NCBI GenBank assembly: GCA_028015205.1
Contig: CM051512.1
Span: forward strand, 5,702,755 to 5,766,754
Length of the DNA: 64,000 nucleotides
Direction: 5' to 3'
Source of the DNA: Mytilisepta virgata
Lineage: Eukaryota; Mollusca; Bivalvia; Mytilida; Mytilidae
The notes under the pieces are model-generated. The model saw only the letters and a program-made list of their open reading frames with translations, made no database searches and was not told the DNA's origin. Of this stretch, positions 349-64,000 are shown piece after piece (the first letter of the stretch is position 1; every line of letters starts with the position of its first letter). Position numbers and translations under genes: made by a program.

Positions 349-2446
349 CTGGAAAAATAGTGGATTCAATACATTATATGTTTATTTTTATTATTATATA
401 ATTACAAACTTTTAATCCAAAACTGATACTCACAACAATAAATGAAACCATCATGTAATCGGCTTTACTCTAGTAACAGTAACAGCGTACAGACGTTGTG
501 CATATTATTTAAAAACACTTAATTCGTGAACGTTTACATTTTTCTGTTTATTTACAAGTATACTGCATGATGTCAGTGCTACATATATTCTGTAATTATT
601 ATGTTTAAGAATCCTTTTGAAAAGGAATGTTGATCCTGAAAACCCAACTATCTTTGAGACTATGAGTTCTCTATGGTTCGAAACAGAAAGGACTTAATCA
701 CCCAAGTTACAAGTTAATCATTATATTCGATAAAAATAAACAGGAATAACCTTACTATTAAATATCTCATGATGCCGATAACACAACTCCTAAACACATC
801 TTTACAGTGAAAGTATTGAAATAATAGTTTTCTTATACATTAGATGTTGATAGGTGAACTACATTTTTGAGAGTTAAAATCGACCATTGACATCTAATAT
901 TATTGATATTTGATAATATGAACATGATGAAACAGAATACAATTATCTGGTATATCGGCACACATGATAAATGTGTTATTTTAGTGTCACATAAGGAAAA
1001 CGGTACGTACCTAATTTCAAAAATTGTACAAATCATACATTTTGTGGGTAAGGACAAAATATTCGTTATTGTAAAATGTATAACTGACCACAAATGACAA
1101 ATGAAGATATAACAATAATCACAGATACGGAGGTAAAAATTACTTTATTGGATTATAGATATTCAAAAGATACAAGTTACACTATATAAGAAATAATTTC
1201 GCTGTAATCGTTGTAGTCAGAGATTTCTCTGAATTCATTCAAACAACCAGTTATAATTGGACGAGTGACGTCAGAACGGAGTATAAAATCGGCACTTTTC
1301 AGTGCTTGAGCACTAATACATATATTTTCTACCCCGTCAAAACCCTATGTACTACATTTCTATAAACATTTAGCTCTGAAATGTGCCCGTACTATTAACA
1401 AATAATCATTTAGGAACGGATGATGTATTTGTATCGGCTATTTTTTCTCCTTGACCAGAAATGACTATCTTAATTTTTGGAAATACTACATGTACTTAAA
1501 TGGTCATGGAAGCATATTTACTGGGTTTTCTTGGCAAAAATTTGTATGGAGTGGTCTGATGTTTCTCCGCGGTACAGCCATGGCCTTGATGCAAAAAAAT
1601 GAAAAGAAAAAGGTACAGTTTTACAGACACATTATTGCTTTCCAATTCAAACCCTGCTTTACACAAGTTTTTCGGACATTTTGAGATTTGTTAGTCTTTC
1701 ATATTACTAAACTGTCCGTTGTATATAAAAACGTTTGACCGTAATTTTTCAGACACGTTTTCCTTCATGTGTACACACATTAATTGTCCAATTCCCAAGC
1801 GCAACTTAATGCCAAACTTGAGACTGATTTTACTTATACAACAAATTAAGACCGAGGAAAAATAAACCTAAGAAGAAAATAAAAAAAACCCAATCCATTG
1901 GACATACAAGCAGGGGAAGACAAATGAACATTCACAAGCACAACAAATAAACACAAAAAACTAAAAAAACAATTAACAACACGAACTCCTATAAAAAAAA
2001 GGTGTGAATCCGGGTGGCCCGGAAAGGTAAGCAGTTTCTGCTGTGTATACGGCACCCGTCATGAAGTTAAGAACATAAAAAATTACCTCTTTTGGAAAAA
2101 ATGGAGCTATGAGTGATAGAGAGAGATAGGACAGGAAGCAACACAAACACAAACTTATAAGTATCAATTTATGTCTGTTTCCAAGGGAACGGAATGAAAA
2201 CGAAGGCACTGGACTTCCTGTAATAGATTCTGAATCTTCCGAAGTCTCTTTTGGAGGTGTTTGTGGGCTATCTTCTATTGATTCTGACGCAGAACACTCG
2301 TCATACTCGTTACTTTTAGGAGCAATTTCCCACATTCTGCAACTAGAACTAATATCTATGTTGTCATTTTGTTTTTTGGAAGAGTTGGAAAACACGCTGT
2401 TGCTAACTGTGGTTCTTTGAGAATTCGTATGAATATATATAGTCAT
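253..2446 (-). CDS. MFS transporter, SLC18B1-like (5' part, two exons)
   Basis: Coding parts are 2446-2087 (120 codons from ATG) and 348-253 (32 codons); both junctions are phase 0 with canonical GT/AG sites, and the gene continues off the left edge. The first exon encodes an acidic, Ser-rich cytoplasmic N-terminus, then a basic step (GNRHK) and the first membrane helix ending in APFFPKE. The second exon continues with a loop and helix 2 (SDTISGWIFGIFALTQ, then a SPLFGRL motif). This matches the start of SLC18-type major facilitator proteins, closest in my judgement to SLC18B1, a vesicular polyamine transporter family; the assignment is from recognisable helices, not a search. The 1.7-kb intron holds repeat remnants. 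Other MFS subfamilies are possible. Confidence 0.62.
349..2086 (-). other. Intron of the transporter gene
   Basis: No coding exon is visible. It is AT-rich sequence with one repeat tail near its right end (about 1925-2062). Confidence 0.4.
1925..2062 (-). repeat. Penelope-associated 3' tail repeat, reverse copy
   Basis: Shares the (reverse-complement) motif set 'ACTCTTCCGGAGCACCTG ... GGTTTTTTTGGTGGG ... TTTTAATTGTAGTG' found at the end of the RT remnants at 5.3 and 48.1 kb. The copy is diverged and truncated. Confidence 0.5.
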
Positions 2447-2537
2447 CTTGAACTGATATTACAATCTCATTTTCCTCATTGGTATTTTGTTCATCATTAG
2501 ACATCCTTTCATTTTCAAATCGTTCATCGATATCTAC
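2087..2537 (-). CDS. SLC18B1-like first coding exon with 5' leader
   Basis: The exon appears to start at 2537, after a TTATTTCAG acceptor, and ends at 2087 before GTAATT. Translation from the ATG at 2446 leads directly into the transporter helix. The preceding 91 bases are open in a different frame (acidic peptide with its own ATG, starting MSNDEQN) that overlaps the main start and stops near 2403. So this is either a 5' leader with an overlapping upstream ORF, or a frameshift separating a longer natural N-terminus. Confidence 0.5.
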
Positions 2538-4310
2538 CTGAAATAATAAACTTAGAATTGAAAGTTCCATAGAACAATAGTGTAGCTTCTTTCCATTATG
2601 CAACGATTAAGGAGTAGCTAGAATAGGGAATTTGTACGCCTAAGTAAGTAATTTGATTAAATTAAAGCCTTTTTTATTGGACTAGTGTCGATTACAATAC
2701 ATGAAAATAAAACAAGGTCATGTTTCTTCAGATAAAAAACCAGTTCAACAATTTATCAAACACAATTCAAATAGGGGTTGGACTGGACACAAAGAGGACC
2801 GATTTTGACTGCGCATAATGTAGAAGAGTGGATGATTTGGGTAGGGGCGGATTATTTAGCCTTAACTAGGGCCATTGGCCTACTTAGCCTACTCTTATGG
2901 AACACTACAGAAGTGTTTTGTATCGTGAGTGGACGTGGCATTCTCCAAATACGTTACCAACAATGGTCCGCTGTTAGGCTTTTCATATAATGAGCTGACA
3001 ACCTCCCAATGATAGTGTCTCGCCTATTCGCCAACAGGAACGTGCTGTCTGCTCTGTGGGGTTAGCTCCCGCGAGAAACCGAGAGAAAGGTATAATATTT
3101 CAGCTCAATATATTAACATATTTAACTTCCGAGTAGAACTGTTTGGTCTGTCTCCCTTTTTAACAGTAACATAAAGCCACCATCCTATAGTGTTGTATCT
3201 TACAATTGTTTCGTTACTGCCGTTCATATACTTAGCTATTGTCTAGGTAAGGCAATGATGTTGTCACATAAACTTATAAGGATAATACTCAGTCCTTTTT
3301 TATTTCATCACTTCAAAAAATGTACCGTCGTTATCACGAAATGTTTGGAGAATACGAAGTTTCTATCTCATGAATGAGACTATATATTTCGCGTCTTATT
3401 GTAATTGACACCTTAACGGACTTCGCACTTCACCGGTAATGTGACGGGTCTCATTATCATATAACCCTTTTGCATCAATTGATATCAGTCTCGGTATTAA
3501 GTGAGAGTTCACATTGCTGATGTTTTATTTTCTACTATGACTTGCTATGACTTGTTATAATTCTGTTAGGTTTAGTTTTTTCTTTTACTTTTACTTGTAT
3601 CCTTATGGACTCTGTCTGTCATGTTGCATTGTGATGAGATTTTCTTGCCTTTTGATTTTGATATTTCCGATTTCGATCCACTGTTCTGTCGCTTCTTTTA
3701 CAGACATTTATCTTTCAGTAAAGTCTTTTGCAGGTTTAGAAGGAGTTGCAGAGAGCAGAAAATGTGATGACGAAGGCGACGACGACGAAAAATGACGAAT
3801 AGTGATGCATTTGCTTCGACACTTCTATGCAGCCGACATAATAATATATACATATGTATGTATTACCAGAGATGTCATCTTAATACCGACATTTTGTGTG
3901 GAGGATTGAGATAATTTGAAGCAAAAGTATTAGCAATTCATCATAACTATACTAATGATTTCTAGTATTTCTACACTGCGGTTGTGAATGCGAATTCTCG
4001 CAAGTAGTTGTATTCAATTCCAATCTCATGCTGATAAAAAATGATCGGTTTTCCTCCTGTAATCAATATAATAACATTGTTCGTGTTTGTTATCAAATTT
4101 GGAATATTCAGTATTATATGATCTTCGCGTATTTTTGCAGGTTTCCACAAAACCAAACGTTCTTATAGACATATGTATCTGTATTAGAAGTTCCGTTTAC
4201 TCAATCAAAATATAGTTAAAATATTTTACATTTTAAATATTTTCTATTTTAACATCTGTCAAAACAGGCCTCCAAAGTTATTGTGATACAAGCTGTTCAA
4301 GAAGTTGTAT
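2538..4310. other. No gene recognised
   Basis: AT-rich sequence with short open frames only. I see no conserved protein motif, RNA gene or clear TIR element here. Confidence 0.4.
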
Positions 4311-4315
4311 CAATC

Positions 4316-5520
4316 AAATGTGGATTTATATTAAAGAACTCCAAGAGTTAAAGGATATTTTACGATCTCGGTCCATTTCAGTCTGTAACAGCATGAAAAC
4401 ATTTGATTTCTCTACTCTCTATACCACTATTCCTCATTCACAACTGAAGGAGAGGTTGGAAGATCTAATGCATTGATGCTTTCAAAATAAAAATGGCAAC
4501 AACAGATGCACATACCTTGTCATTGGTAGAGATAAATCATACTTTGTTAAAAAAAACACTCTAAATCTAAGAAAAAATATACAGACGACGAAATTGTCCT
4601 GGTGATTGAATTTTTGTTCGACAACATATTTGTTAAATTTGGTGGACGTGTTTTCTAACAGACAATTGGCCTTCCTATGGGTACTAATTGTGCGCCACTA
4701 CTGGACAACTTGTTACTTTACTCATACAAGGCACACTTCCTTGACGGGCTTCTTAAGGAAAAACAGAAGAAGTTATAGCCTTTACCTTTAATTTCAGCTT
4801 CTGCTACATAGATGATGTTTTTTCACTCAAAAATTAACGTTTTGGGAATTTCTTACATCTCATCTATCCCAATGAGCTCGAAATTAAGGATACCACAGAC
4901 ACTGCCAAGTCTTCATCTTATCTTGACCTTCACCTCGAAATTGACACAGAGGAAGGTTGAATACAAAACTTTACGACAAACGGGATGACTTTAACTTTCC
5001 AATCGTCAGCTTTCCACTTTTGAGCATCAATATTCCAGAAACGCCGGTGTATGGAGTATATTTCACAACTGATATGTTATTCCAGAGCTTGTGACATATA
5101 CATTTACTTCCTGGACAGAGCCAGACTCCTGACAGAAAAGTTGCTCAGACAGGGGTACGTTCTCATAAGCTGAAGTCATCCTATTAAAGTTTTATGGTCG
5201 TCATCATGACTTGGTTGACTGGTCTGAAAAAACCGTTTCCCAAATGAAAATGGACCTATTCCATTGATATTATCCCTTCCTCATACCGGATTTGACTTGG
5301 GCAGCATGGCGGGTAGTCCCTGCAGAAGCAGGGACTACTTACTCTTCCGGAGCACCTGAGTCTACCCCCGGCTTTTTTTGGTGGGGTCCGTGTTTTAATT
5401 TTTTAATTGTAGTGAATGTATTGTTTTGGTCTTGTCTTCGTTGTTTCCGGAGTTTGTCAGTTGTTACGATTTTTCTCTCCTTCGAATATCCCTTTGTTAT
5501 TTCTTGACTTTACTTACAAA
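4316..5520 (+). pseudogene. Decayed Penelope-like reverse transcriptase and 3' tail
   Basis: Broken frames in order give an RT palm segment (MKTFDFSTLYTTIPHSQLK), the TIGLPMGTNCAP-like finger motif (about 4660-4700), a YIDDV-type catalytic motif (about 4805) and an SSYLDLHLEI motif, as in bivalve Penelope-like or related RTs. Several stops and frameshifts make it non-functional. The 3' end (about 5290-5510) is the tail repeat seen again in reverse at 1.9, 13.2 and 15.9 kb and forward at 48.0 kb. I see no GIY-YIG endonuclease downstream. Confidence 0.7.
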
Positions 5521-55200: not shown

Positions 55201-57601
55201 TTCTTATGTGACCCCCTTTCAGACTTATCTCCAAGAACCCAAGGCACCATTCAAGGTGTTTGTTTGTTTGTTTAGTTGGGGTATTAAGCTGTTTTCACCA
55301 CATTTGGCAATTTTTGCGGCGGCAAGTCTTTATTTGTGGAGGAAGCTGGAGTACCTGGAGAGAACCACCAACCTTCAGTAGGAAAATTGGCAATCCTTGT
55401 CAATTAAGATCGGAGTCGAACACACCCCGCCACAGATGAGATTCGAACTCACAACCTCAGTGTCAACAGGGTAGTTATCATTAGTAGTCATGACGAACTA
55501 CCCCTAGACCACTCAGCCACCGAGGTCCCCAAATCAAGATGAAAATAGAAATTAATGCATGCAAAGGCTTGTGACATATCATAAGACTTAACTTGAAACA
55601 GAAAATAGGGGTAGTGATGTTTTTCTAATAAAGGCAGACTTTACAGGTGTATGTGTCTTGGTTGTACATATTTTTCCCACTAATTATTGGATGGTTCTCG
55701 CTGATTCCAAGAAAAGATTATGGCTAATACTGCACACACATGCACATTTCAGTATGGTAAAAACTTCTTTCTCTCACAAAATCATATTTTAATAGCAATT
55801 GTCAAGTTGGACAGGTTTTTAATTATATTACATGTCAAGACCTATAGTTTCTGCATGTAATATCAGTGTATATTGTAAAAAGTAAGTCAATATGAATACA
55901 TTTATCAGAAATTTTATTGTTTTCAGATTGACCCACAGACTCTTCTGGCAATGTCAGATGACCAACTGCATGTTTACATACCTGCTTATGGGGATATTTA
56001 TGCTGCAAGGAGATATTTTAAAGAACAGATGAAAAAAGACCAGAAAAACAAAAGAACTGAAACATTATTCCAAAGATTAAGAAGGAAAATGGGACAGAAA
56101 GACAAGTCATCAGACAGTGAAGAAGAAGTTAAAAAAACTTCCAACAAGAGGTTGCCCAAAAAAACAAAAACATCAAACAGCACAATGGAACTCTCAATGA
56201 GCAGAAGTGAAAAACTTAAAGGAAATGACAACGCAGTGAAAGGACATAGGAACATCGAAATTGGTTGGTTTGATTATGATTATTCTGACAACATGTTTCA
56301 CCAAGTGAAAACTAATAAAGGAGGAGGTACACGAGATGTAATTGCACCCAAATCGTGGATTCCAGTTGATATCATAGAGCAAGGAAAGAAACTTTTTTTT
56401 CTTAATGGAATTTCAAAAAAGGGAACTGTAAGCAACTTCAGCTTTGAGTTAAGAAATTTTATGGGTGAACCAATAGAAAACAATTGCACTATTGGTAATC
56501 TATATGAGATAACAGGGTCCAAACTGCTCAGGTTTTATATATACACAAAGAAGATGAGTACAGCTGTTACAGAGATAGAAGCTGATCATGATATGTCAGA
56601 TGACAGTTTGCCAGACCCAAAACTTTTTTCTTGTAAACGATTTTCAAATAGAAATGTACAGTCAACTACAACATTGCCTGATGCAGGCAAAGCTTCAACT
56701 CCACCCCATAATCACCCAGATACATCTTCATCAACAGCTTCGTCTGCTTTAGCAGGGATTACTTCCAGTAATCTTTCATCACCAGCCTCAAAAACATCAA
56801 CAGTGGTAACAATTAAAATGAAGGATGATGATGGTACCATATTTTGTCCTAAAGATAGTGATGATTACCAGTTTACAGAGTCTTTAAATCCGCAAGCACA
56901 GATATTTCCATCTGAGAGCTGTTTAGAATTTTCTGTAGGAGAAAATGATGAAACATTACCATTGTACAGTCCTATATTACAGCAAGTACTTCTTACTGAT
57001 TCATCAATGCTTTCTGATCCATCATCCAATACGTACAATTATGTGATTAATATTCCAGATGATTTGAGTACTTCACCACAAAAGGTTATTAGAATACATA
57101 AAAGTCACACCTTTTCAGAAATGTTAGAATTATTTTGTGACGAAAACATGGATTTTGATGAAAAAGTATGTAAAGTAATAAGAGTAATGCCAAATGGTCA
57201 AGATGAGAAAGGTGAAGGGGTTGGATTTTTAAAAGATGTATTTTGTGAATTTTGGGACAGCTTTTATACCAAATGTTGTGATGGAGTGAATACAAAAGTT
57301 CCTATTCTTAGACACGACATGCAGGAGCCTGAATGGAAATCAGTTGCAGCCATCATCTGCAATGGATACAAAACTGTTGGTTATTTTCCAGTACACATCT
57401 GTCAAGCTGTTATTGAAGATGCCATATTTGGAGCTTCAAATACTGATCTGATAAACTGTTTTATGAACTACATACCCAAGAATGATAAAACTGTCATTCA
57501 GACAGCTTTGAATAACTTTGATGATGTGTATTTAGGTGATCTAATTGATATCCTTGAAAGTTATGATTGCAGAAAATACCCAGCAAAGCAAAATATTAAA
57601 G
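49143..57601 (+). CDS. SAM-domain and HECT-like protein, interrupted by LTR element
   Basis: Exons: 49143-49280 (tentative), 52373-52468 and 55927-57601, all joined in phase 0. The SAM domain spans the exon 2/3 junction (VLEVVHFLEKRGVEKKYLD, then IDPQTLLAMSDDQLHVYI). A basic linker and a conserved beta-rich module follow (EIGWFDYD, KGGGTRDV, ELFF-like, LLRFYIYTKK), then a Ser/Thr-rich disordered stretch. The last part resembles the N-lobe of HECT ligases of the G2E3-like group (EGVGFLKDVFCEFW, KSVAAIICNGYKTVGYFP). The C-lobe with the catalytic Cys is absent because a Gypsy LTR begins at 57,606; the residual open frame to 57,639 is LTR sequence. Many bivalve and fish paralogues of this architecture exist. 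It may be a pseudogene or continue beyond the insertion. Confidence 0.65.
49381..50313. mobile_element. Inverted-repeat element around LINE debris
   Basis: Left end AAGACAATTCGGACCGATTA and a second GACAATTCGGATCGACTATG; the right end has GGTCCGAATTGTC twice and GAGCCGAATTGTC in inverse orientation. Inside are a reverse LINE-type tail (49,520-49,620) and a forward LINE C-terminus (49,800-50,195). Confidence 0.5.
49800..50195 (+). pseudogene. Non-LTR retrotransposon C-terminal fragment
   Basis: Open frame ending WITKLRASIPIEMGRWQNVP, then a CTICRKE...FHLLFKC zinc-knuckle-like motif typical of the end of LINE RT proteins. Only this C-terminal part exists. Confidence 0.6.
50395..52372 (+). other. 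Intron of the SAM-HECT gene
   Basis: Begins with the CCGTTGTCCGTTGTC / GAAACCACTGGGCCAGTTGG dispersed repeat; the rest is AT-rich without signals. Confidence 0.4.
52373..52468 (+). CDS. SAM-HECT gene exon 2 (first half of SAM domain)
   Basis: Lies between TGTTTTGTAG and GTGAGA and encodes (NE)MEEASVLEVVHFLEKRGV and onwards to IKEEK. Phase 0 at both ends. Confidence 0.7.
52875..53350. repeat. About 125-bp tandem repeat, nearly four copies, G-rich
   Basis: CTTGTCATGCCCACTAAGAA at 52875, 53000 and 53124, with a diverged fourth unit from about 53,240. Each unit has a GAGGGGGGTGGGGC run followed by CCCCCGGGG, able to form G-quadruplex or hairpin structures. Confidence 0.8.
53351..55256 (+). other. 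Intron with dispersed repeats
   Basis: GTACGTACGTACGGACGGAC near 53,770 and the CCACTGGGCCTGTTTGAACC repeat near 54,260. No coding signal. Confidence 0.4.
55257..55530 (-). mobile_element. tRNA-derived SINE, reverse, diverged
   Basis: Reverse of the 18.0-kb SINE: TTTGTTTAGTTGGGGT tail, CAATTAAGATCGGAGTCGAA, GAGATTCGAACTCACAACC (B-box) and CCACTCAGCCACCGAGG (A-box region). Confidence 0.75.
55927..57601 (+). CDS. SAM-HECT gene main exon
   Basis: Starts after TTGTTTTCAG with IDPQTLLAMSDDQLH and stays open to the LTR. The sequence AAAG|GTAT at 57601/57602 could be a genuine donor (phase 1), in which case the LTR sits four bases into the next intron. Confidence 0.75.
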
Positions 57602-57605
57602 GTAT

Positions 57606-57823
57606 TGTCGCGTTCGCGTGGGCCAAGGGTGACACATGACAATTACCTTATAACAGTCGTTGTCAGGTTGGTGACTTCAAGTGGACGACGAACGCTCAAC
57701 GAAGGAATCGACGTGTTTCTTGCTTGGAATCTCGACTTGAAGTGCCTCGTTTTCCGTCAGGGAATTGTGGGTAATTTCCGGTGTAGCCTTCTCCTAGTAT
57801 GGAGCACCGCCAGGTCTACGACA
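57606..57823 (-). repeat. 3' LTR of the Gypsy element (218 bp)
   Basis: Starts TGTCGTAGACC directly after the polypurine tract and ends ACGCGACA, giving 5-bp terminal inverted repeats TGTCG/CGACA. The adjacent host bases are ATACC (57,605-57,601, minus), the expected TSD position. The other LTR is outside the window, so the ends rest on these signals only. Confidence 0.7.
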
Positions 57824-57832
57824 TTCCTCCCT
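57824..57832 (-). promoter_or_regulatory. Polypurine tract
   Basis: AGGGAGGAA immediately before the LTR's TGTCG; the plus-strand primer site for reverse transcription. Confidence 0.65.
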
Positions 57833-57961
57833 ATTCCATCTATTTTGGAAACGTCTCACTACCGTTGTCAGGTGGCTCCACCAGGCTGGTCACTCTCTGG
57901 ATTCAGTGGTGAAATGTGGCCATTTAATTTTTTAGTAATTTTGAATTCAAATATTCAAAAC

Positions 57962-58007
57962 TTCAACTTGCAAGGGTCAGAGCATCTGGCACGTCCTGCA
58001 AGCTGAA
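57962..58007 (-). ncRNA. Conserved-loop RNA hairpin 4 (3' UTR)
   Basis: Apical 20 nt identical to hairpin 3 (57,994-57,975). The 13-bp stem TTCAGCTTGCAGG/CTTGCAAGTTGAA includes two U-G wobbles valid only on the sense strand. Non-coding. Confidence 0.75.
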
Positions 58008-58530
58008 AAATTCTCCTAATAAGCCAAAACTAGTCAAGCCAAATGAGTACCAAAGTGAAGTGTGCAGCATTAATCTGGACACTAGTGTCAAATCAGTTAA
58101 AAGATTGCAGTATTTTGGTGTACTGCAAATGGTACATAAATTTATGAATCTTAATGACATATGGTAAATGATGCAATATGAATAGCAATTACAGCACTAG
58201 AGGTCAATCCAAGTAATCATATTGCAAACAGTATTTTGTGGATGAAATAATACATTACACAAAAAATCAGTATCAGACAAATCATCAAGATCAATACAAA
58301 TGCCATCAAATAAAATCTTGAAGTGTGAGAATAATACAAACACACTTCAACATAAACAAAATCATCAAGATCAATACAAAAATCAATAGATAGCAAAATG
58401 AAGTGTGCAACAAAGTAAAAAGTACACTTCCACAATACAAAATCAACAAGATTCAAAATAATATCAACATATCTTGTTGATAGACAGGATTAATTACAAC
58501 ATAATAAAATAAGCACATTGTCATTCAGTC

Positions 58531-60039
58531 TTATTCCAACCGGTATGTCCTCCTTACGTTTCGGGTGGACACTTTCAGGACCTCCTCAATTGGAATTTGA
58601 ATTACCCTGGAGACTTCGTTGGCCACATAATAAACTTGGTAAGGACTACCCTCCTGTTGTTCTGTTGAGATATATGGTGCATCGGATTCTAAAACAATTT
58701 TGTTAATACCATGGTGAGCCAAAAATTCTGTGATGGTTGATTTCTTTCTGTTATGGAGGATGAAAGGAGTGATGCCAAACACAATATTTGAAAACTTTTG
58801 AACTGCAGAGGTGTAAACTGCTGAATTTCCCAAAAAACAATGCCAATGGATAGGATGCTGAGGTTGAAGATGTACTGACAGGGTCTCCACGATGGTCTGG
58901 TGGAGTCTAAAGTCACCTCTGCAATGGATAACAACAGGAAGGTTCATCTCATGGGCAAGTTCCAGCTGTTTTTCCAGGAAGCGAATCTGGCGATGGTAAT
59001 TCCTGGTTGCAGGACTGTCTGTGGTATCCAGGCCACATTCCCCAATAGCCACTGTCCTAGTTGACTTGCAGATAGATTTCAGACTGTCAAACCATCCCTC
59101 CACGACATCAGTTTTGGTTGAAGAAACAAGTCGGGGGTGAAGTCCATAGGTGAAATAGATCCGCTCGTCCCTTCGGATGTTGGAACGCTGGAGCGCAGAA
59201 GGGAATGTGTCTGGATAGCAGTAGTTGGTTACCAGATACTTCAGGTTCACTCCTGGAAACTGCACACTGGAGTTCAAATCATCCAACTCATGAAGGTCAG
59301 AGCATCTGGCACGTTTCATGAGTTGGTCGAGATGAAAGTGTGCGTCGGCTATGGGCAGTATTCCTGATGGTTTCACTGCTAGGCTCCCAATCGTCACTCC
59401 CTGATGATTATTTCTCTCTTCAAAGGTGGCATACATCCCTCTGACTTCCTCATCTAGCTGGTGAAGTACAGCTTTGGTTACCTTCCAGTGGATAAGAGAA
59501 TCTATCCGGAACCCAGTGGTGGATTTAATGGTGGGATAGACTCTACTCTCTGGAAAATTAGCCGACAAGAACAATCTGGCCAGGGAACGCTCCTTCTCAG
59601 TAAAGCCAGCAGGAAGCTGGTACTTCTTGGGGTCCAAGATCTGGTTGACTCTCTGCACAAGTCCCTCAGGGTAAGAGACGCCTAATATACTGGCGAGATC
59701 AAAGAAGAGGCCCGTCATCAGCTCTACCCATTTCTGTCCGTGAACTTCCTCGGAAAACTGGGCCTGGTCCACAGAATTGGCATGACAGTCTCGTATATGT
59801 TGAAGAGCAAACTTCTCCTGGCCTTCCTGCATTCCACATTTCCAACATGCAGTATGTGGAGCGAAGTACCAGGGAAGATGCGCTGTCAAGGTGTGTCTGG
59901 CCGGGTTGGAAAATCTAACCGAGGAGTCACAAAGGAAACAGGGTCTCTGTCGAGTCCGTGTTGCCACGCCTCTAACAAATGGAGGAATCCGGTCGTCCTC
60001 ATCCAGCTCCAACTCAAATGCATCTACTCTGTCGGACAT
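58531..60039 (-). CDS. Retroelement ORF3: zinc-finger TatD-type hydrolase
   Basis: 502 residues from the ATG at 60039, the first ATG after a strong splice acceptor at 60,060. The N-terminus is acidic (FELELDEDD). Two C2-H2-like motifs follow: C34-x2-C37 with H49/H54, and C65-x2-C68 with H81/H86. From about residue 230 it is a TatD amidohydrolase barrel: ADAHFHLD (H234, H236), YGLHP, GECGLD (E334), VIHCRG (H372), WHCF (H400) and ESDAPY (D453), i.e. all expected metal ligands. The TatD family acts as Mg-dependent 3'-exonuclease/DNase; TATDN2-like proteins are numerous in bivalves. Here it sits where retroviruses carry env. A role in trimming cDNA or damaging host DNA/RNA sensors is speculation. 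Confidence 0.85.
   Translation of the reverse strand: MSDRVDAFELELDEDDRIPPFVRGVATRTRQRPCFLCDSSVRFSNPARHTLTAHLPWYFAPHTACWKCGMQEGQEKFALQHIRDCHANSVDQAQFSEEVHGQKWVELMTGLFFDLASILGVSYPEGLVQRVNQILDPKKYQLPAGFTEKERSLARLFLSANFPESRVYPTIKSTTGFRIDSLIHWKVTKAVLHQLDEEVRGMYATFEERNNHQGVTIGSLAVKPSGILPIADAHFHLDQLMKRARCSDLHELDDLNSSVQFPGVNLKYLVTNYCYPDTFPSALQRSNIRRDERIYFTYGLHPRLVSSTKTDVVEGWFDSLKSICKSTRTVAIGECGLDTTDSPATRNYHRQIRFLEKQLELAHEMNLPVVIHCRGDFRLHQTIVETLSVHLQPQHPIHWHCFLGNSAVYTSAVQKFSNIVFGITPFILHNRKKSTITEFLAHHGINKIVLESDAPYISTEQQEGSPYQVYYVANEVSRVIQIPIEEVLKVSTRNVRRTYRLE
59283..59326 (-). ncRNA. Conserved-loop RNA hairpin 3 (in ORF3)
   Basis: Apical 20 nt ACGTGCCAGATGCTCTGACC (59,314-59,295) within a perfect 12-bp stem CCAACTCATGAA/TTCATGAGTTGG. 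Encodes KRARCSDLHEL just after the HFHLD motif of TatD. Confidence 0.75.
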
Positions 60040-60058
60040 TCTCAATGCTCTATTAAAA

Positions 60059-60075
60059 CCTGAAAAAACTAGAAG
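60059..60075 (-). promoter_or_regulatory. Splice acceptor upstream of ORF3
   Basis: CTTCTAGTTTTTTCAG|GTTT: a polypyrimidine run and AG at 60,061-60,060, 67 bases after the pol stop and 20 before the ORF3 ATG. Suggests a spliced subgenomic mRNA for ORF3, with the donor in the 5' part outside the window. Confidence 0.65.
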
Positions 60076-60141
60076 AACATTTTCTCTCATTAATATATCA
60101 CTTCTATGTACACAATCATATAAAAATATATATATATATAA

Positions 60142-63100
60142 TTAAATGTCTATATCATAGTCACGGAGATAACCCGGAGGTTTCCGAACTCTCTTGTCCC
60201 TTCTTTGAGGTGAAGATTCCTCTTTAACGTTTTCTACATCGGAATCCTCTATCCCGTAGAGAAAGGTTTCATCCAGATCCTTACTATCTAGATCTGCTAA
60301 ATTATTTACAAAAATTCTATCTGTACCGGTTTTATCAGAATCAGTGACAGTCCGCTTGCAGAGGTCAGAGCATCTGGCACTTTCTACAAGCTCGCTGTCC
60401 CTGATTATTTCCTCTATGGGGTCCAAATGTGCCATATCGGTGGCAGAATCGGTCAATGAGTTCATACAGGGGTCAGAGCTTCTGGCACTTCCTATAGACT
60501 CATTAACGGTATCATCTGTATTTCGTTGAAAAAAGGCCGGAATGGATTGTTCTACATCCTCTTCTTTTTCTGCAGTGTCCTCTTGTTGATCATCATTTTG
60601 ATTAAGGATTTGATGTTTCTTCCTCTTCAGCCAAATGGGTATGTGTTTATCATGACAAGGTTTTAGTTGATCATGATGGATAACTGTTTCTCTCTTTCTA
60701 TCGACAATTCGGTATAAAACTGGAGATACAACTTCTGTGACTAAGAATGGGCCTTGCCATGGCGACTGCAGTTTTTTACTTTGCCCAATCCGTGTGGCAG
60801 AATTTATTCTGTAAACCAAGTCACCGACTGCATAGGACTTTTGGTTGAGTCTAACATCATAATCTCTTTTCTGACGGAATTGTGCCCCAGATATGTTTTC
60901 TCTTGCTACTCCATGTATTTGCTCTAGAGTGTCCCTTAAACCACTTACGTATTGTGAAGGGTAAAATTCTCTCCTGTTGATTTCATAAATGCCGGTTAAC
61001 AAGTCGATTGGATATGTTACTTCTCTTCCTAGCATCATCATGTTGGGGGTGAAGCCCGTGTGCCGATTTTCTGAGGCTCTTATGGCTCCTGCTAGTTGTT
61101 GAATATATTTGTCCCAATCTTTTTGTTTGTTCTTCAAATAACACCGAACAGACTGTAATATAACAGAATTATACCTCTCACATTGTCCATTTGAGCATGG
61201 GTGGTAAGGAGTAGTTCTGGTTTTAGCAATTTCCAATAACTTACAAAGTTCCGTAAAAAGATTTCCTGTGAAATTTTTACCCTGATCTGTATGGATTTCA
61301 ATGGGACAACCAAATCTTGAGATGAATCCATCGACAGCTGTTTTAGCTATTGTTTCTGCATTTTGGTTTGGTAAAGGAAAAAACTCTATCCATTTTGTAA
61401 ATTGGTCTATGATGACTAATATGTATTTATTTTTATCTGTGCTTTCTGCCAAAGGCCCTAAAATGTCCAAATGTATTCTTTCAAGGGGTACTCCAGAGTG
61501 AAATTGTCCAAGTTCTGCTTTTGCTTTCAAATTTGGTTTTTTATTCCTGTTGCAAATCTCACAACTTTTTACATATAATCTTGCATCGAGTTGTAATCCT
61601 CTCCAAATAAATCTCTGTTTCAGTCGACTAACTGTTTTGTTTTGTCCAAAATGACCTGCAGATTTGGCGTCATGGCAACCTTTTAATACGTCATTTTTCA
61701 TAGATGTAGGAACAAGTAACAAAAGTCTAGGTTCAATTGGATCCAACCATCTGTAGCAAAGTACATTTTTAGCAAAAGAAAGTTGTGTGCGACAATTCCA
61801 AAACTGTTTCACTGCAGCACTACAGAGTTGTAATTCATGTTCTGAAGGTTCTACATCATTTTCTAGCCAAAAAATCAGCTTCTTTAGATCAGGATCCCTT
61901 CTTTGTTCTTTGGCAACTTTATCAACAGATTCTATGCCAACCCAGTTTTTACTTGTAAGATCTTGTTCATCTTGGCTATCTTGTTGTTGAATTTGCTCAC
62001 TGATACTACGAACAGCAAGAGGAACTACGTCATCAACATCTGTCTCAAATCTTTCCCAGTTTCTTTGGGCTCGGGTGCAATATGCACATCCACCACAAGG
62101 TAGTGATTGCAAAGTTGCTCCTGCATAATAACAATCACACTTTTGCATTTCATCTGGACGTCTAGAAAGTCCATCTACATTACCATGTTTCTTTCCAGCT
62201 CTATGCTGAACAACCATATCATATTCTGACAGGGCCTCTAACCAACGGGCTAATTGACCTTCTATTGTTTTGAAGCGTAGTAACCATGTTAAGCTGTTGT
62301 GGTCAGTTCTTACCACGAATTGGTTTCCTAATAGATAATTCCTAAACTGTTTGGTAAATGTTACTACTGCCAAAAGCTCTTTTCTGGTGGTACAATATCT
62401 CCTTTGTGCAGGTGTTAATACCTTACTGGCGTAGCAAATTACATATTCTTTTCCGTTGTGTACTTGAATCAGTTCAGCGCCTATGGTGTCATTTGATGCA
62501 TCCGTGTCGAGAATAAAGGGGTCGTCAGGATAAGGATAGGCTAAGGTGGCTGAATTTAGTAATGCTTTTTGAATGGTTTGAAATGCTTCTTGATGTTCTT
62601 TTTCCCAATGAAAGGTACCCTTCTTCTTAGTCGTTTCATACAGTGGAGCAGCTAATTTTGCATAGTCTTTTATATGTTCGCGGTGGTAATTGGCGAAGCC
62701 CAAAAATGATTGAACGTCTCTTTTGCGTTTTGGTACTGGCCATTTCATAATGGTTTCTTTGTTTTCTGGATTGATTGACACACCATGTTCATTAACGAGT
62801 TTGCCTAAAAATAATACTTCAGTCTGAAAAAACGAGCATTTCTTCGGTTTTAATTTTAAGTTGTTGTCTCTAAATCTTTGTAGGACTTTTTTAAGGTTTT
62901 CTAGATGGTTTTGAAAACTGTTTCCTAATACTATAACATCGTCAAGGTACGCTAAACATTCTTTCCAGGTTAAGCCTGTCAGAATTAGCTGGATCATGCG
63001 TTGAAAAAATGCTGGGGAGTTGCAGAGTCCGAAACTGAGTCTTATATGTTCAAATAAGCCATATTTGGTCACAAATGCAGTTTTATGTCGATCGTTCTCA

Positions 63101-64000
63101 TGAATTTCGGCCTGATAATAACCGGAGGCCATGTCGAGGCACGAGAAAAATTGTGAGCCTCGAAGAGTGTCGATACAGGACTCGATTCGTGGCAATGGAA
63201 ACGCATCTTTCCGGGTACAATCGTTTAACTTTCTGTAATCAATGCAGTATCTTAGCTTACCATCTCGTTTCCTTACTAGTACAGGTGCAGCAGCCCATTC
63301 AGAACTAGAAGGTTGAATTATCCCTTTGTCTAATAATTGTTGAATATGTTTCTCTTCCTCATCTTCGAAACCAAATGGGGTTCTTCGCATTTTTTCTCTA
63401 ACAGGTGTTGCATTTCCAGTATCAATCCTGTGCTTGATCTTAGTAAAGTGGCCAATGTCAAAATCATCTTTGGCAAATGTGTCCTGAAACTCTATCAGTA
63501 ATTTTGCTACTTCAGTTGCTTGTGTTGAAGTTAAATGTTGAATTGATCTTTCATACAAATCTTGAAGATGTGATTGTAATTGTTTTGAAGTTGAACTTTC
63601 TTGATTAATATTTGTTTCCTCTAGTGTCACTTGACGAACTTCTTTCTCATTTTGAATATTGTCCTGGATAATATGGTCTATTTCCATTGCTGTCCCTAGC
63701 TCTGTGTCTCTTTTCAAGTAAATATGTTTGTCTGTAAAATTCTTTAAAGTAATTGGTACTGTCTTGCTGTTTTCAGCTAATATATACGGCATGACAAGTC
63801 CATTTAATGATTTTGAAGGTTGAATAATTAGCTCTCCATTAAGTTCTCCAAACAACTTTGCTGGTAACTGTACTGTTGATTTAGGTTCAACGACCAATTT
63901 CTTTTCTAATTTCACTCGGCATACTTTCGTAGATTTCTCATTATTACTGAAGGCATTTATTGGAATTCTGTCCTTCCCAATCGTGATGGAATAATCATTA
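60142..64000 (-). CDS. Gypsy Pol polyprotein: RT, RNase H, integrase (N-terminus outside window)
   Basis: Open from the window edge, about 1285 codons here. Counting from the GTG at 63915 as 1: RT about 150-400 with LRYCIDYRKLN, FSCLDMASGYYQ, FGLCNSP and YLDD (323-326); RNase H with DTDAS (about 471), RKELLAV and RTDHN; a Cys-rich insert (CDCYY...CGGCAYC) at 593-613; integrase HHCC (H748, H755, C785, C788) and D,D-35-E (D816, D877, E913); a GPY/F-like module (SPWQGPFLV); and a 140-residue acidic Ser-rich tail ending RKPPGYLRDYDIDI. All catalytic residues are present. Two copies of the conserved hairpin lie in the tail region. The GTG is not a start; the frame continues upstream. Confidence 0.95.
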   Translation of the reverse strand, partial: NDYSITIGKDRIPINAFSNNEKSTKVCRVKLEKKLVVEPKSTVQLPAKLFGELNGELIIQPSKSLNGLVMPYILAENSKTVPITLKNFTDKHIYLKRDTELGTAMEIDHIIQDNIQNEKEVRQVTLEETNINQESSTSKQLQSHLQDLYERSIQHLTSTQATEVAKLLIEFQDTFAKDDFDIGHFTKIKHRIDTGNATPVREKMRRTPFGFEDEEEKHIQQLLDKGIIQPSSSEWAAAPVLVRKRDGKLRYCIDYRKLNDCTRKDAFPLPRIESCIDTLRGSQFFSCLDMASGYYQAEIHENDRHKTAFVTKYGLFEHIRLSFGLCNSPAFFQRMIQLILTGLTWKECLAYLDDVIVLGNSFQNHLENLKKVLQRFRDNNLKLKPKKCSFFQTEVLFLGKLVNEHGVSINPENKETIMKWPVPKRKRDVQSFLGFANYHREHIKDYAKLAAPLYETTKKKGTFHWEKEHQEAFQTIQKALLNSATLAYPYPDDPFILDTDASNDTIGAELIQVHNGKEYVICYASKVLTPAQRRYCTTRKELLAVVTFTKQFRNYLLGNQFVVRTDHNSLTWLLRFKTIEGQLARWLEALSEYDMVVQHRAGKKHGNVDGLSRRPDEMQKCDCYYAGATLQSLPCGGCAYCTRAQRNWERFETDVDDVVPLAVRSISEQIQQQDSQDEQDLTSKNWVGIESVDKVAKEQRRDPDLKKLIFWLENDVEPSEHELQLCSAAVKQFWNCRTQLSFAKNVLCYRWLDPIEPRLLLLVPTSMKNDVLKGCHDAKSAGHFGQNKTVSRLKQRFIWRGLQLDARLYVKSCEICNRNKKPNLKAKAELGQFHSGVPLERIHLDILGPLAESTDKNKYILVIIDQFTKWIEFFPLPNQNAETIAKTAVDGFISRFGCPIEIHTDQGKNFTGNLFTELCKLLEIAKTRTTPYHPCSNGQCERYNSVILQSVRCYLKNKQKDWDKYIQQLAGAIRASENRHTGFTPNMMMLGREVTYPIDLLTGIYEINRREFYPSQYVSGLRDTLEQIHGVARENISGAQFRQKRDYDVRLNQKSYAVGDLVYRINSATRIGQSKKLQSPWQGPFLVTEVVSPVLYRIVDRKRETVIHHDQLKPCHDKHIPIWLKRKKHQILNQNDDQQEDTAEKEEDVEQSIPAFFQRNTDDTVNESIGSARSSDPCMNSLTDSATDMAHLDPIEEIIRDSELVESARCSDLCKRTVTDSDKTGTDRIFVNNLADLDSKDLDETFLYGIEDSDVENVKEESSPQRRDKRVRKPPGYLRDYDIDI
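60354..60391 (-). ncRNA. Conserved-loop RNA hairpin 2 (in pol tail)
   Basis: Apical 20 nt AAGTGCCAGATGCTCTGACC (60,382-60,363). The 9-bp stem GCTTGTAGA/TCTGCAAGC includes one pair that is G-U on the sense RNA but a C-A mismatch on the other strand. Encodes ESARCSDLC. Confidence 0.7.
60456..60503 (-). ncRNA. Conserved-loop RNA hairpin 1 (in pol tail)
   Basis: Apical 20 nt AAGTGCCAGAAGCTCTGACC (60,490-60,471). The stem is ATACAGG-type plus an outer ATGAGT/ACTCAT helix separated by an internal loop. Encodes GSARSSDPC in pol. Confidence 0.6.

Follow-up and report, generated by a model that had tools for sequence, protein, structure and literature searches.

Dispersed packaging signals of the MS2 type, as outlined in the part of the account used here, consist of many hairpins in the genomic RNA that share one short recognition motif while their other parts vary (PMC6281560). 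In this study, we describe a similar arrangement in a Ty3/Gypsy long terminal repeat (LTR) retrotransposon of the bivalve Mytilisepta virgata, much of which lies in a stretch of 64,000 nucleotides (assembly GCA_028015205.1, contig CM051512.1, positions 5,702,755 to 5,766,754, forward strand; hereafter, the window is this whole stretch). There, one 20-nucleotide (nt) core recurs in eleven hairpins along the element. The MS2 motif, (x)xYA, is much looser than this core, of which 13 of 20 positions are identical in all eleven copies (PMC6281560, in part). Unlike MS2-type systems, the carrier here is an LTR retrotransposon, and its hairpins are known from sequence alone.

Retroviral export elements offer a second comparison. 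The retroviral constitutive transport element (CTE) binds NXF1/TAP and exports unspliced RNA. The Mason-Pfizer monkey virus (MPMV) CTE and the direct repeats of Rous sarcoma virus (RSV) and avian leukosis virus (ALV) resemble our hairpins in being repeated structured elements of the genomic RNA, one of whose copies closely precedes the 3' LTR, and differ from them in number and place, as RSV has two direct repeats flanking src whereas the present element has eleven copies, four of them in the leader (PMC9143442, in part). Ty3, finally, belongs to the same broad element class and has cis-acting signals at its 5' and 3' ends; its internal part, though, is dispensable in trans, its packaging sequences are not precisely defined, and the portions of the two accounts drawn on here mention no repeated hairpin family (PMC4974528, PMC11381356). 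Searches with Rfam 15 gave no match in the whole window at gathering thresholds and none at E up to 1 in five loci (4,913 bases) that include all eleven hairpin types. A text search of the literature for three spellings of the core found nothing, and a search by title and abstract start showed no repeated hairpins in Gypsy elements among the papers listed, which is not proof of their being unpublished. In the iron-responsive element, a five-pair stem with a bulged C is capped by the apical loop CAGUGN; we rejected it as a candidate, as the apical part here is CAG-N5-CUG and has no Rfam match.

Eleven predicted hairpins with a common core

A sequence-only reading of the window had drawn attention to a minus-strand word, A[C/A]GTGCCAGATGCTCTGACC, in four hairpins. 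We find it at 57975-57994, 59295-59314, 60363-60382, and 60471-60490, the last with one mismatch (T to A), and all four sites fold as hairpins (z of −2.95, −4.14, −3.69, and −4.44, respectively). These four are real, but they are only part of the set, since the element holds eleven: the 5' leader has four, three follow gag, the pol tail has two, and open reading frame 3 (ORF3) and the 3' untranslated region (UTR) have one each, as follows.

57961..58008, minus strand: hairpin "UTR," non-coding, between the ORF3 stop and the 3' LTR; core 57975-57994; stem of ∼14 bp
59283..59326, minus strand: hairpin "ORF3," in the TatD frame directly after the HFHLD motif; core 59295-59314; perfect 12-bp stem
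60340..60405, minus strand: hairpin "pol2," in the pol tail; core 60363-60382; 9-bp stem plus two outer 5-bp helices
60452..60507, minus strand: hairpin "pol1," in the pol tail; core 60471-60490; triloop AGC; 17 pairs, with two one-base bulges on the 3' side
G000:C5:5770476-5770513, 5770358-5770395, 5770198-5770235, and 5770059-5770096: leader hairpins, matched by a covariance model
G000:C5:5767395-5767432, 5767311-5767348, and 5767152-5767189: post-gag hairpins

The number of 20-nt words expected by chance is 0.00 (100 shuffles), which, together with the genome-wide confinement of the core described below, rules out a chance word. Seven hairpins were used to train a first covariance model (R1), a type of model that yields rough E-values. 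It scored the UTR hairpin, itself one of the seven, at 55.6 bits and recovered the four leader hairpins, which were not in its training set, at 24.1 to 30.3 bits. With a second model built from all eleven (R2), no further site appeared at E up to 0.1 in the window and in loci L033 and L035, which together run from the 3' LTR to the 5' LTR. The UTR hairpin ends ∼140 nt short of the 3' LTR. Five of the eleven copies are non-coding (the four leader hairpins and the UTR hairpin) and six are coding (5a, 5b, 5c, pol1, pol2, and ORF3). In agreement with the sequence-only reading, third codon positions of the core agree among the three coding copies in the window, and the fourth window copy, at 57,975, lies past the ORF3 stop.

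The common form of the eleven sites is an outer stem, ANGUGC, CAG, five bases, CUG, RCC, and the other side of the outer stem. At the fourth inner pair, the four leader copies have C-G, and of the seven non-leader copies five have A-U and two are unpaired. The stems had been described as unrelated. This is true only of the four leader hairpins, which lie outside the window and have another stem; among the seven non-leader copies (four in the window and three outside), the 9-nt 5' arm reads RYYYRYRRR in all seven and the 3' arm YYYRYRRRY in six. As this common arm pattern suggests shared descent of the stems, the seven non-leader hairpins seem to go back to a single ancestral hairpin, with most of their differences being pair-preserving transitions.

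Pairing, codon choice, and distribution of the core

Over the eleven distinct hairpins, 93.7% of stem cells are paired, compared to 68.3% when the 3' partners are shuffled (none of 500 shuffles as high) and 19.1 to 39.2% when they are slid. The covariation score is 0.796, a value that none of 500 shuffles attains (0.285 for shuffled partners), and slid partners give no more than 0.144; 43 cells have changed on both sides, where shuffling gives 16.2. Each of the nine outer pairs adjoining the core shows double-sided change in at least one copy (eight of nine under another tie-breaking), and the fourth inner pair has likewise changed on both sides among copies. In a 20-row set made of the eleven and nine rows from relatives, some of them decayed (drawn from 24 forms, minus five near-identical variants and a decayed ORF3 form of the C8 element introduced below), 89.9% of cells are paired and the score is 0.681, compared to 0.250 when shuffled. 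The eleven hairpins form 9, 9, 9, 7, 9, 8, 7, 7, 9, 9, and 9 of the nine outer pairs, and nine-of-nine pairing around a 20-base gap occurs 12 times among 10,276 positions of the element stretches, with 7 of the 12 being hairpins of this set. The proposed bias toward G-U on the sense RNA has the expected direction, with 11 G-U to 4 A-C over the inner nine pairs of the eleven hairpins, and is not decisive alone (one-sided binomial, about 0.06). As modeled in these alignments, the stems vary in sequence but retain their pairing potential in the sense RNA.

The six coding copies are all read in one common frame (ARCSD, ARSSD, ARFAD, and ARSAG), as they would be if the repeats were a conserved short peptide and the hairpins its by-product. 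Synonymous resampling around the fixed cores nevertheless falls short of the pairing found in these copies: 49 pairs are observed, compared to a mean of 37.6 and a maximum of 47 in 20,000 draws. Because this exceeds all synonymous samples, RNA pairing is kept beyond the needs of the peptide when the copies are taken together, that is, codon choice in the coding copies favors pairing. For single copies, p is 0.019 (5a), 0.55 (5b), 0.11 (5c), 0.045 (pol1), 0.002 (pol2), and 0.018 (ORF3), so that the peptide alone does explain the pairing of 5b. Moreover, the peptide next to the core varies while pairing is retained (FMG/PHE, SIG/PCM, LVE/LCK, and LMK/LHE), and 5 of the 11 copies do not code at all. 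The synonymous test and the non-coding copies largely refute a peptide-only origin, which we consider very improbable.

Genome-wide, the 18-mer has 29 matches with at most one mismatch in 1.03 Gb, and the reversed pattern has none. The pattern GTGCCAGN5CTGACC has 59 matches (reversed control, 2), and 55 of them lie in the element or its relatives; among the four outside, two score 15.8 and 13.1 bits and two have no model match listed. A leader-type pattern has 25 matches (control, 0), of which two, on C3 and C12, lie outside the element, with no full hairpin and no trace of an element protein within about 10 kb. A tiny mobile hairpin, which had been offered as an alternative, does not fit the position of 55 of the 59 core matches, and we rejected a free mobile hairpin or miniature inverted-repeat transposable element, as copies are not scattered outside the carrier.

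Members of the hairpin set also occur in diverged elements, namely C11 (L034/L047), C8 (L046), C5:44.99M (L048), and C5:46.4M (L059). The C11 element is 69 to 77% identical to the window element (pieces of >90 bases), and the gag pieces of L048 and L059 have 40 to 56% protein identity, except for one 21-residue piece at 86%. We compared seven chosen orthologous pairs (C11 UTR, pol2, leader 1, and leader 2; C5:44.99M leaders 1 and 2; and C8 UTR; the C11 leader 3, C11 ORF3, C8 ORF3, and L059 forms were left out), in which the 20-nt cores are identical at 126 of 140 positions versus 775 of 987 in the rest of the local alignments. Neutral descent of duplicated segments without function would agree with the apparent descent of the non-leader copies from one another and with the near identity of the 5' flanks of four further full copies, which are >99% (99.3 to 99.5%) identical to the window element. 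It would not lead one to expect stems that have changed on both sides and yet pair, cores that are nearly fixed, or the same constancy of the core in comparison with relatives that are 69 to 77% identical over most longer aligned pieces, and we hold it to be highly unlikely.

Candidate readers of the hairpins

The covariation over eleven hairpins, the codon choice, the core conservation in relatives, and the non-coding leader and 3' UTR copies support the earlier idea of a repeated cis-acting RNA element, whose role we infer to be packaging, export, or the like. Several hairpins with one recognition motif lie along the genomic RNA (structure predicted), as do dispersed packaging signals, which are bound by the coat or Gag protein and needed for assembly. 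On this model, to which we give about an even chance, the eleven pairing-conserved hairpins would be docking sites, predicted to be bound by the element's own Gag in order to gather and package genomic RNA. The protein, predicted to be Gag, would read the invariant internal loop (ANGUGC opposite ACC) between the variable outer stem and the short inner stem; assembly would begin at the four sites of the 1.5-kb leader, and the remaining seven would distribute Gag over the length of the RNA, like the dispersed packaging signals proposed for some RNA viruses.

We prefer Gag because four copies lie in the leader between the 5' LTR and gag, which is the usual place to seek packaging determinants of retroelements, and because the domains of Gag include a zinc knuckle and a helix-hairpin-helix. 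The latter is unusual for a retrotransposon Gag. Further reasons are the spread of the remaining copies over the RNA, which agrees with the dispersed packaging signal model (PMC6281560, in part), and the finding that yeast Ty3 RNA needed UTR or POL sequences to be packaged, according to the part of that work used here (PMC4974528). Among possible binding partners, Gag would thus be the most likely and a host export factor the next.

Several observations weigh against pairing-conserved docking sites for Gag. Two of our five covariation measures are not clearly above shuffling: pairs changed on both sides were as numerous in 66 of 500 shuffles for the 11 rows and in 178 of 500 for the 20 rows, and further pair types in 20 and 282 of 500, respectively. 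Three of the eleven copies form only seven of the nine outer pairs, two have G-G at the fourth inner pair, and the excess of G-U over A-C is small. Because the copies of a single element share ancestry, the tests do not rest on independent events. In the relatives, the stem is decayed in C11 ORF3, C8 ORF3, and C5:44.99M leader 2, that of C8 UTR has an interruption, and the best fold of C11 leader 3 is a different one. In Ty3, nt 429 to 4979 are dispensable when proteins are supplied in trans, and thus a Gypsy relative need not have internal sites (PMC4974528, in part). Finally, several copies are found toward the 3' end, a region in which export elements occur as well (PMC9143442, in part).

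This last point bears on a second reading: as with repeated elements in some simple retroviruses, host factors would dock on the hairpins for export or stability of the unspliced RNA. A conserved loop set in variable stems, with one copy close to the 3' end, would fit such elements; RSV carries a pair of direct repeats with hairpins and ALV a single one immediately upstream of the LTR, and putative export elements of murine leukemia virus are located in the 5' LTR, pol, and the packaging sequence (PMC9143442, in part). Against it, the hairpins match no Rfam family, and no host RNA with the full hairpin was found among the four genome matches outside elements. Eleven copies are also many for an export element, and we regard this reading as rather unlikely. 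We consider a third reader improbable, namely the ORF3 protein, which would bind or trim its own element's hairpins; this would fit the order of domains in ORF3, where a conserved C..C..H..H region precedes the TatD nuclease domain, and the presence of one hairpin within ORF3 itself.

The carrier element and its relatives

The carrier of the hairpins, a Ty3/Gypsy LTR retrotransposon of ∼10.9 kb on the minus strand, extends beyond the end of the window and has LTRs, gag with a zinc knuckle, protease, reverse transcriptase (RT), RNase H, and integrase in that order, and a target-site duplication. Its remaining features in the window are the following.

60142..63999, minus strand: pol frame with RT, RNase H, and integrase (ORF and domain search), continuing past the window to protease and three more hairpins at G000:C5:5767152-5767432
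58531..60090, minus strand: ORF3, with a cysteine/histidine-rich N terminus and a TatD nuclease domain (PF01026, 149.5 bits)
57824..57835, minus strand: purine-rich tract AATAGGGAGGAA preceding the 3' LTR (by eye), likely the second-strand primer
57606..57823, minus strand: 3' LTR, 218 bp, TGTCG...CGACA (flank comparison)

Outside the window, domain searches identified protease and gag with helix-hairpin-helix, Retrotrans_gag, and zinc knuckle domains, the first of these being N-terminal in Gag (L033:828-2912, minus strand; HHH_3, 35.2 bits). The 5' LTR (G000:C5:5771087-5771304) is 100% identical to the 3' LTR, and ATAC stands on either side of the element. Of five two-LTR copies compared, four have identical LTR pairs and the fifth a pair that differs at one base; with the flank identity given above, these sequences indicate that the element is young and that its copies are not independent evidence. 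A sixth copy (G000:C6:30795253-30797858) has the 3'-half hairpins, and the leader and post-gag hairpins are absent from the 8.5 kb upstream of it.

A likely −1 frameshift site lies at the gag end (L033:794-837, minus strand; G000:C5:5767493-5767536), where U UUA AAC stands in the gag frame one codon upstream of the gag stop, with an 11-bp stem downstream (z of −3.61, 111-nt region) whose loop, GACGACCA, could pair with the downstream UGGUCG as a pseudoknot (by eye). Three diverged direct repeats with a spacing of ∼80 bp occupy 58276-58472 in the 3' UTR. On the plus strand, an open frame of 562 amino acids without a Pfam match (window 55951-57639) enters the 3' LTR, and across the ATAC duplication the host frame continues for a few codons without a stop (by eye), which raises the possibility of an insertion into a host exon.

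In viral contigs, the sole exact match (L001) covers only core positions 11 to 29 of the model (23.8 bits) and was taken as chance. ORF3 and pol, searched as single proteins, found nothing there, and a TatD alignment search of these contigs found five loci at 25 to 33% identity. A separate protein search with the pol tail found one relative.

Relatives of ORF3 and pol proteins prompt a broader and doubtful idea, that this group of Gypsy elements writes an RNA docking code through its whole genome, also where it codes for protein, such that the hairpin would dictate residues in the integrase tail and next to the TatD metal-binding motif, and the varied five-residue stretch at that place in Mytilus-type TatD would be a base-pairing fossil, with each lineage having its own hairpin. 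In TatD relatives (mostly Mytilus where named), residues 1 and 5 and residues 2 and 4 of the stretch matching ARCSD could be encoded by reverse-complementary codons in 13 of 40 distinct words; the background is 2.4% over all words, and partner shuffling has a mean of 6.0 and reaches 13 in 3 of 10,000. This test used protein sequences only, namely the 55 of 71 that contain the anchor motif, and related proteins contributed some of the words. By Watson-Crick pairing, this offset is the highest of 80, the next being a neighboring one at 15% (with G-U allowed, 28% versus 33%). The ARCSD of the window and that of P0001 both fail the test, and we take the TatD pattern as a hint of RNA pairing.

Among pol relatives, P0074 and P0075, which are 74% identical to the window pol over residues 120 to 620, repeat DSSAV before the protease, and the P0075 pol tail has DSGAV, which could code for a like hairpin; this check is control-free and many unrelated repeats also pass it, which makes the case weak. 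In the only test at the DNA level, a variant core derived from DSSAV and predicted for another lineage had no match in the M. virgata genome, where a control pattern had 14. A loose peptide pattern occurred at least twice in the ends of 7 of the best 120 of 4,383 pol relatives, and by eye none of these seven shows the repeat of the window element. In 121 pol proteins (those without the RT landmark were skipped), 21 have repeated end peptides, and 12 of the 21 hold a possible short-hairpin word, again without a control. In other Gypsy pol relatives (P0072, P0090, P0128, and P0085), short peptides (FKVRDQ, SSALLN, VGLRPPRKPPD, and TSDxPM) recur ahead of the protease, in the pol tail, or in both places.

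If Gag docking on the eleven hairpins is correct, an LTR retrotransposon would have an RNA-recognition signal that can be read from its sequence, with one motif, eleven sites, and natural variants showing which bases matter, and the hairpins would be a ready substrate for finding the binding protein. The element would also test whether Gypsy assembly uses dispersed signals, as has been proposed for some RNA viruses, and it would advise caution, in that short conserved peptides of retroelements may mirror RNA structure instead of protein function.

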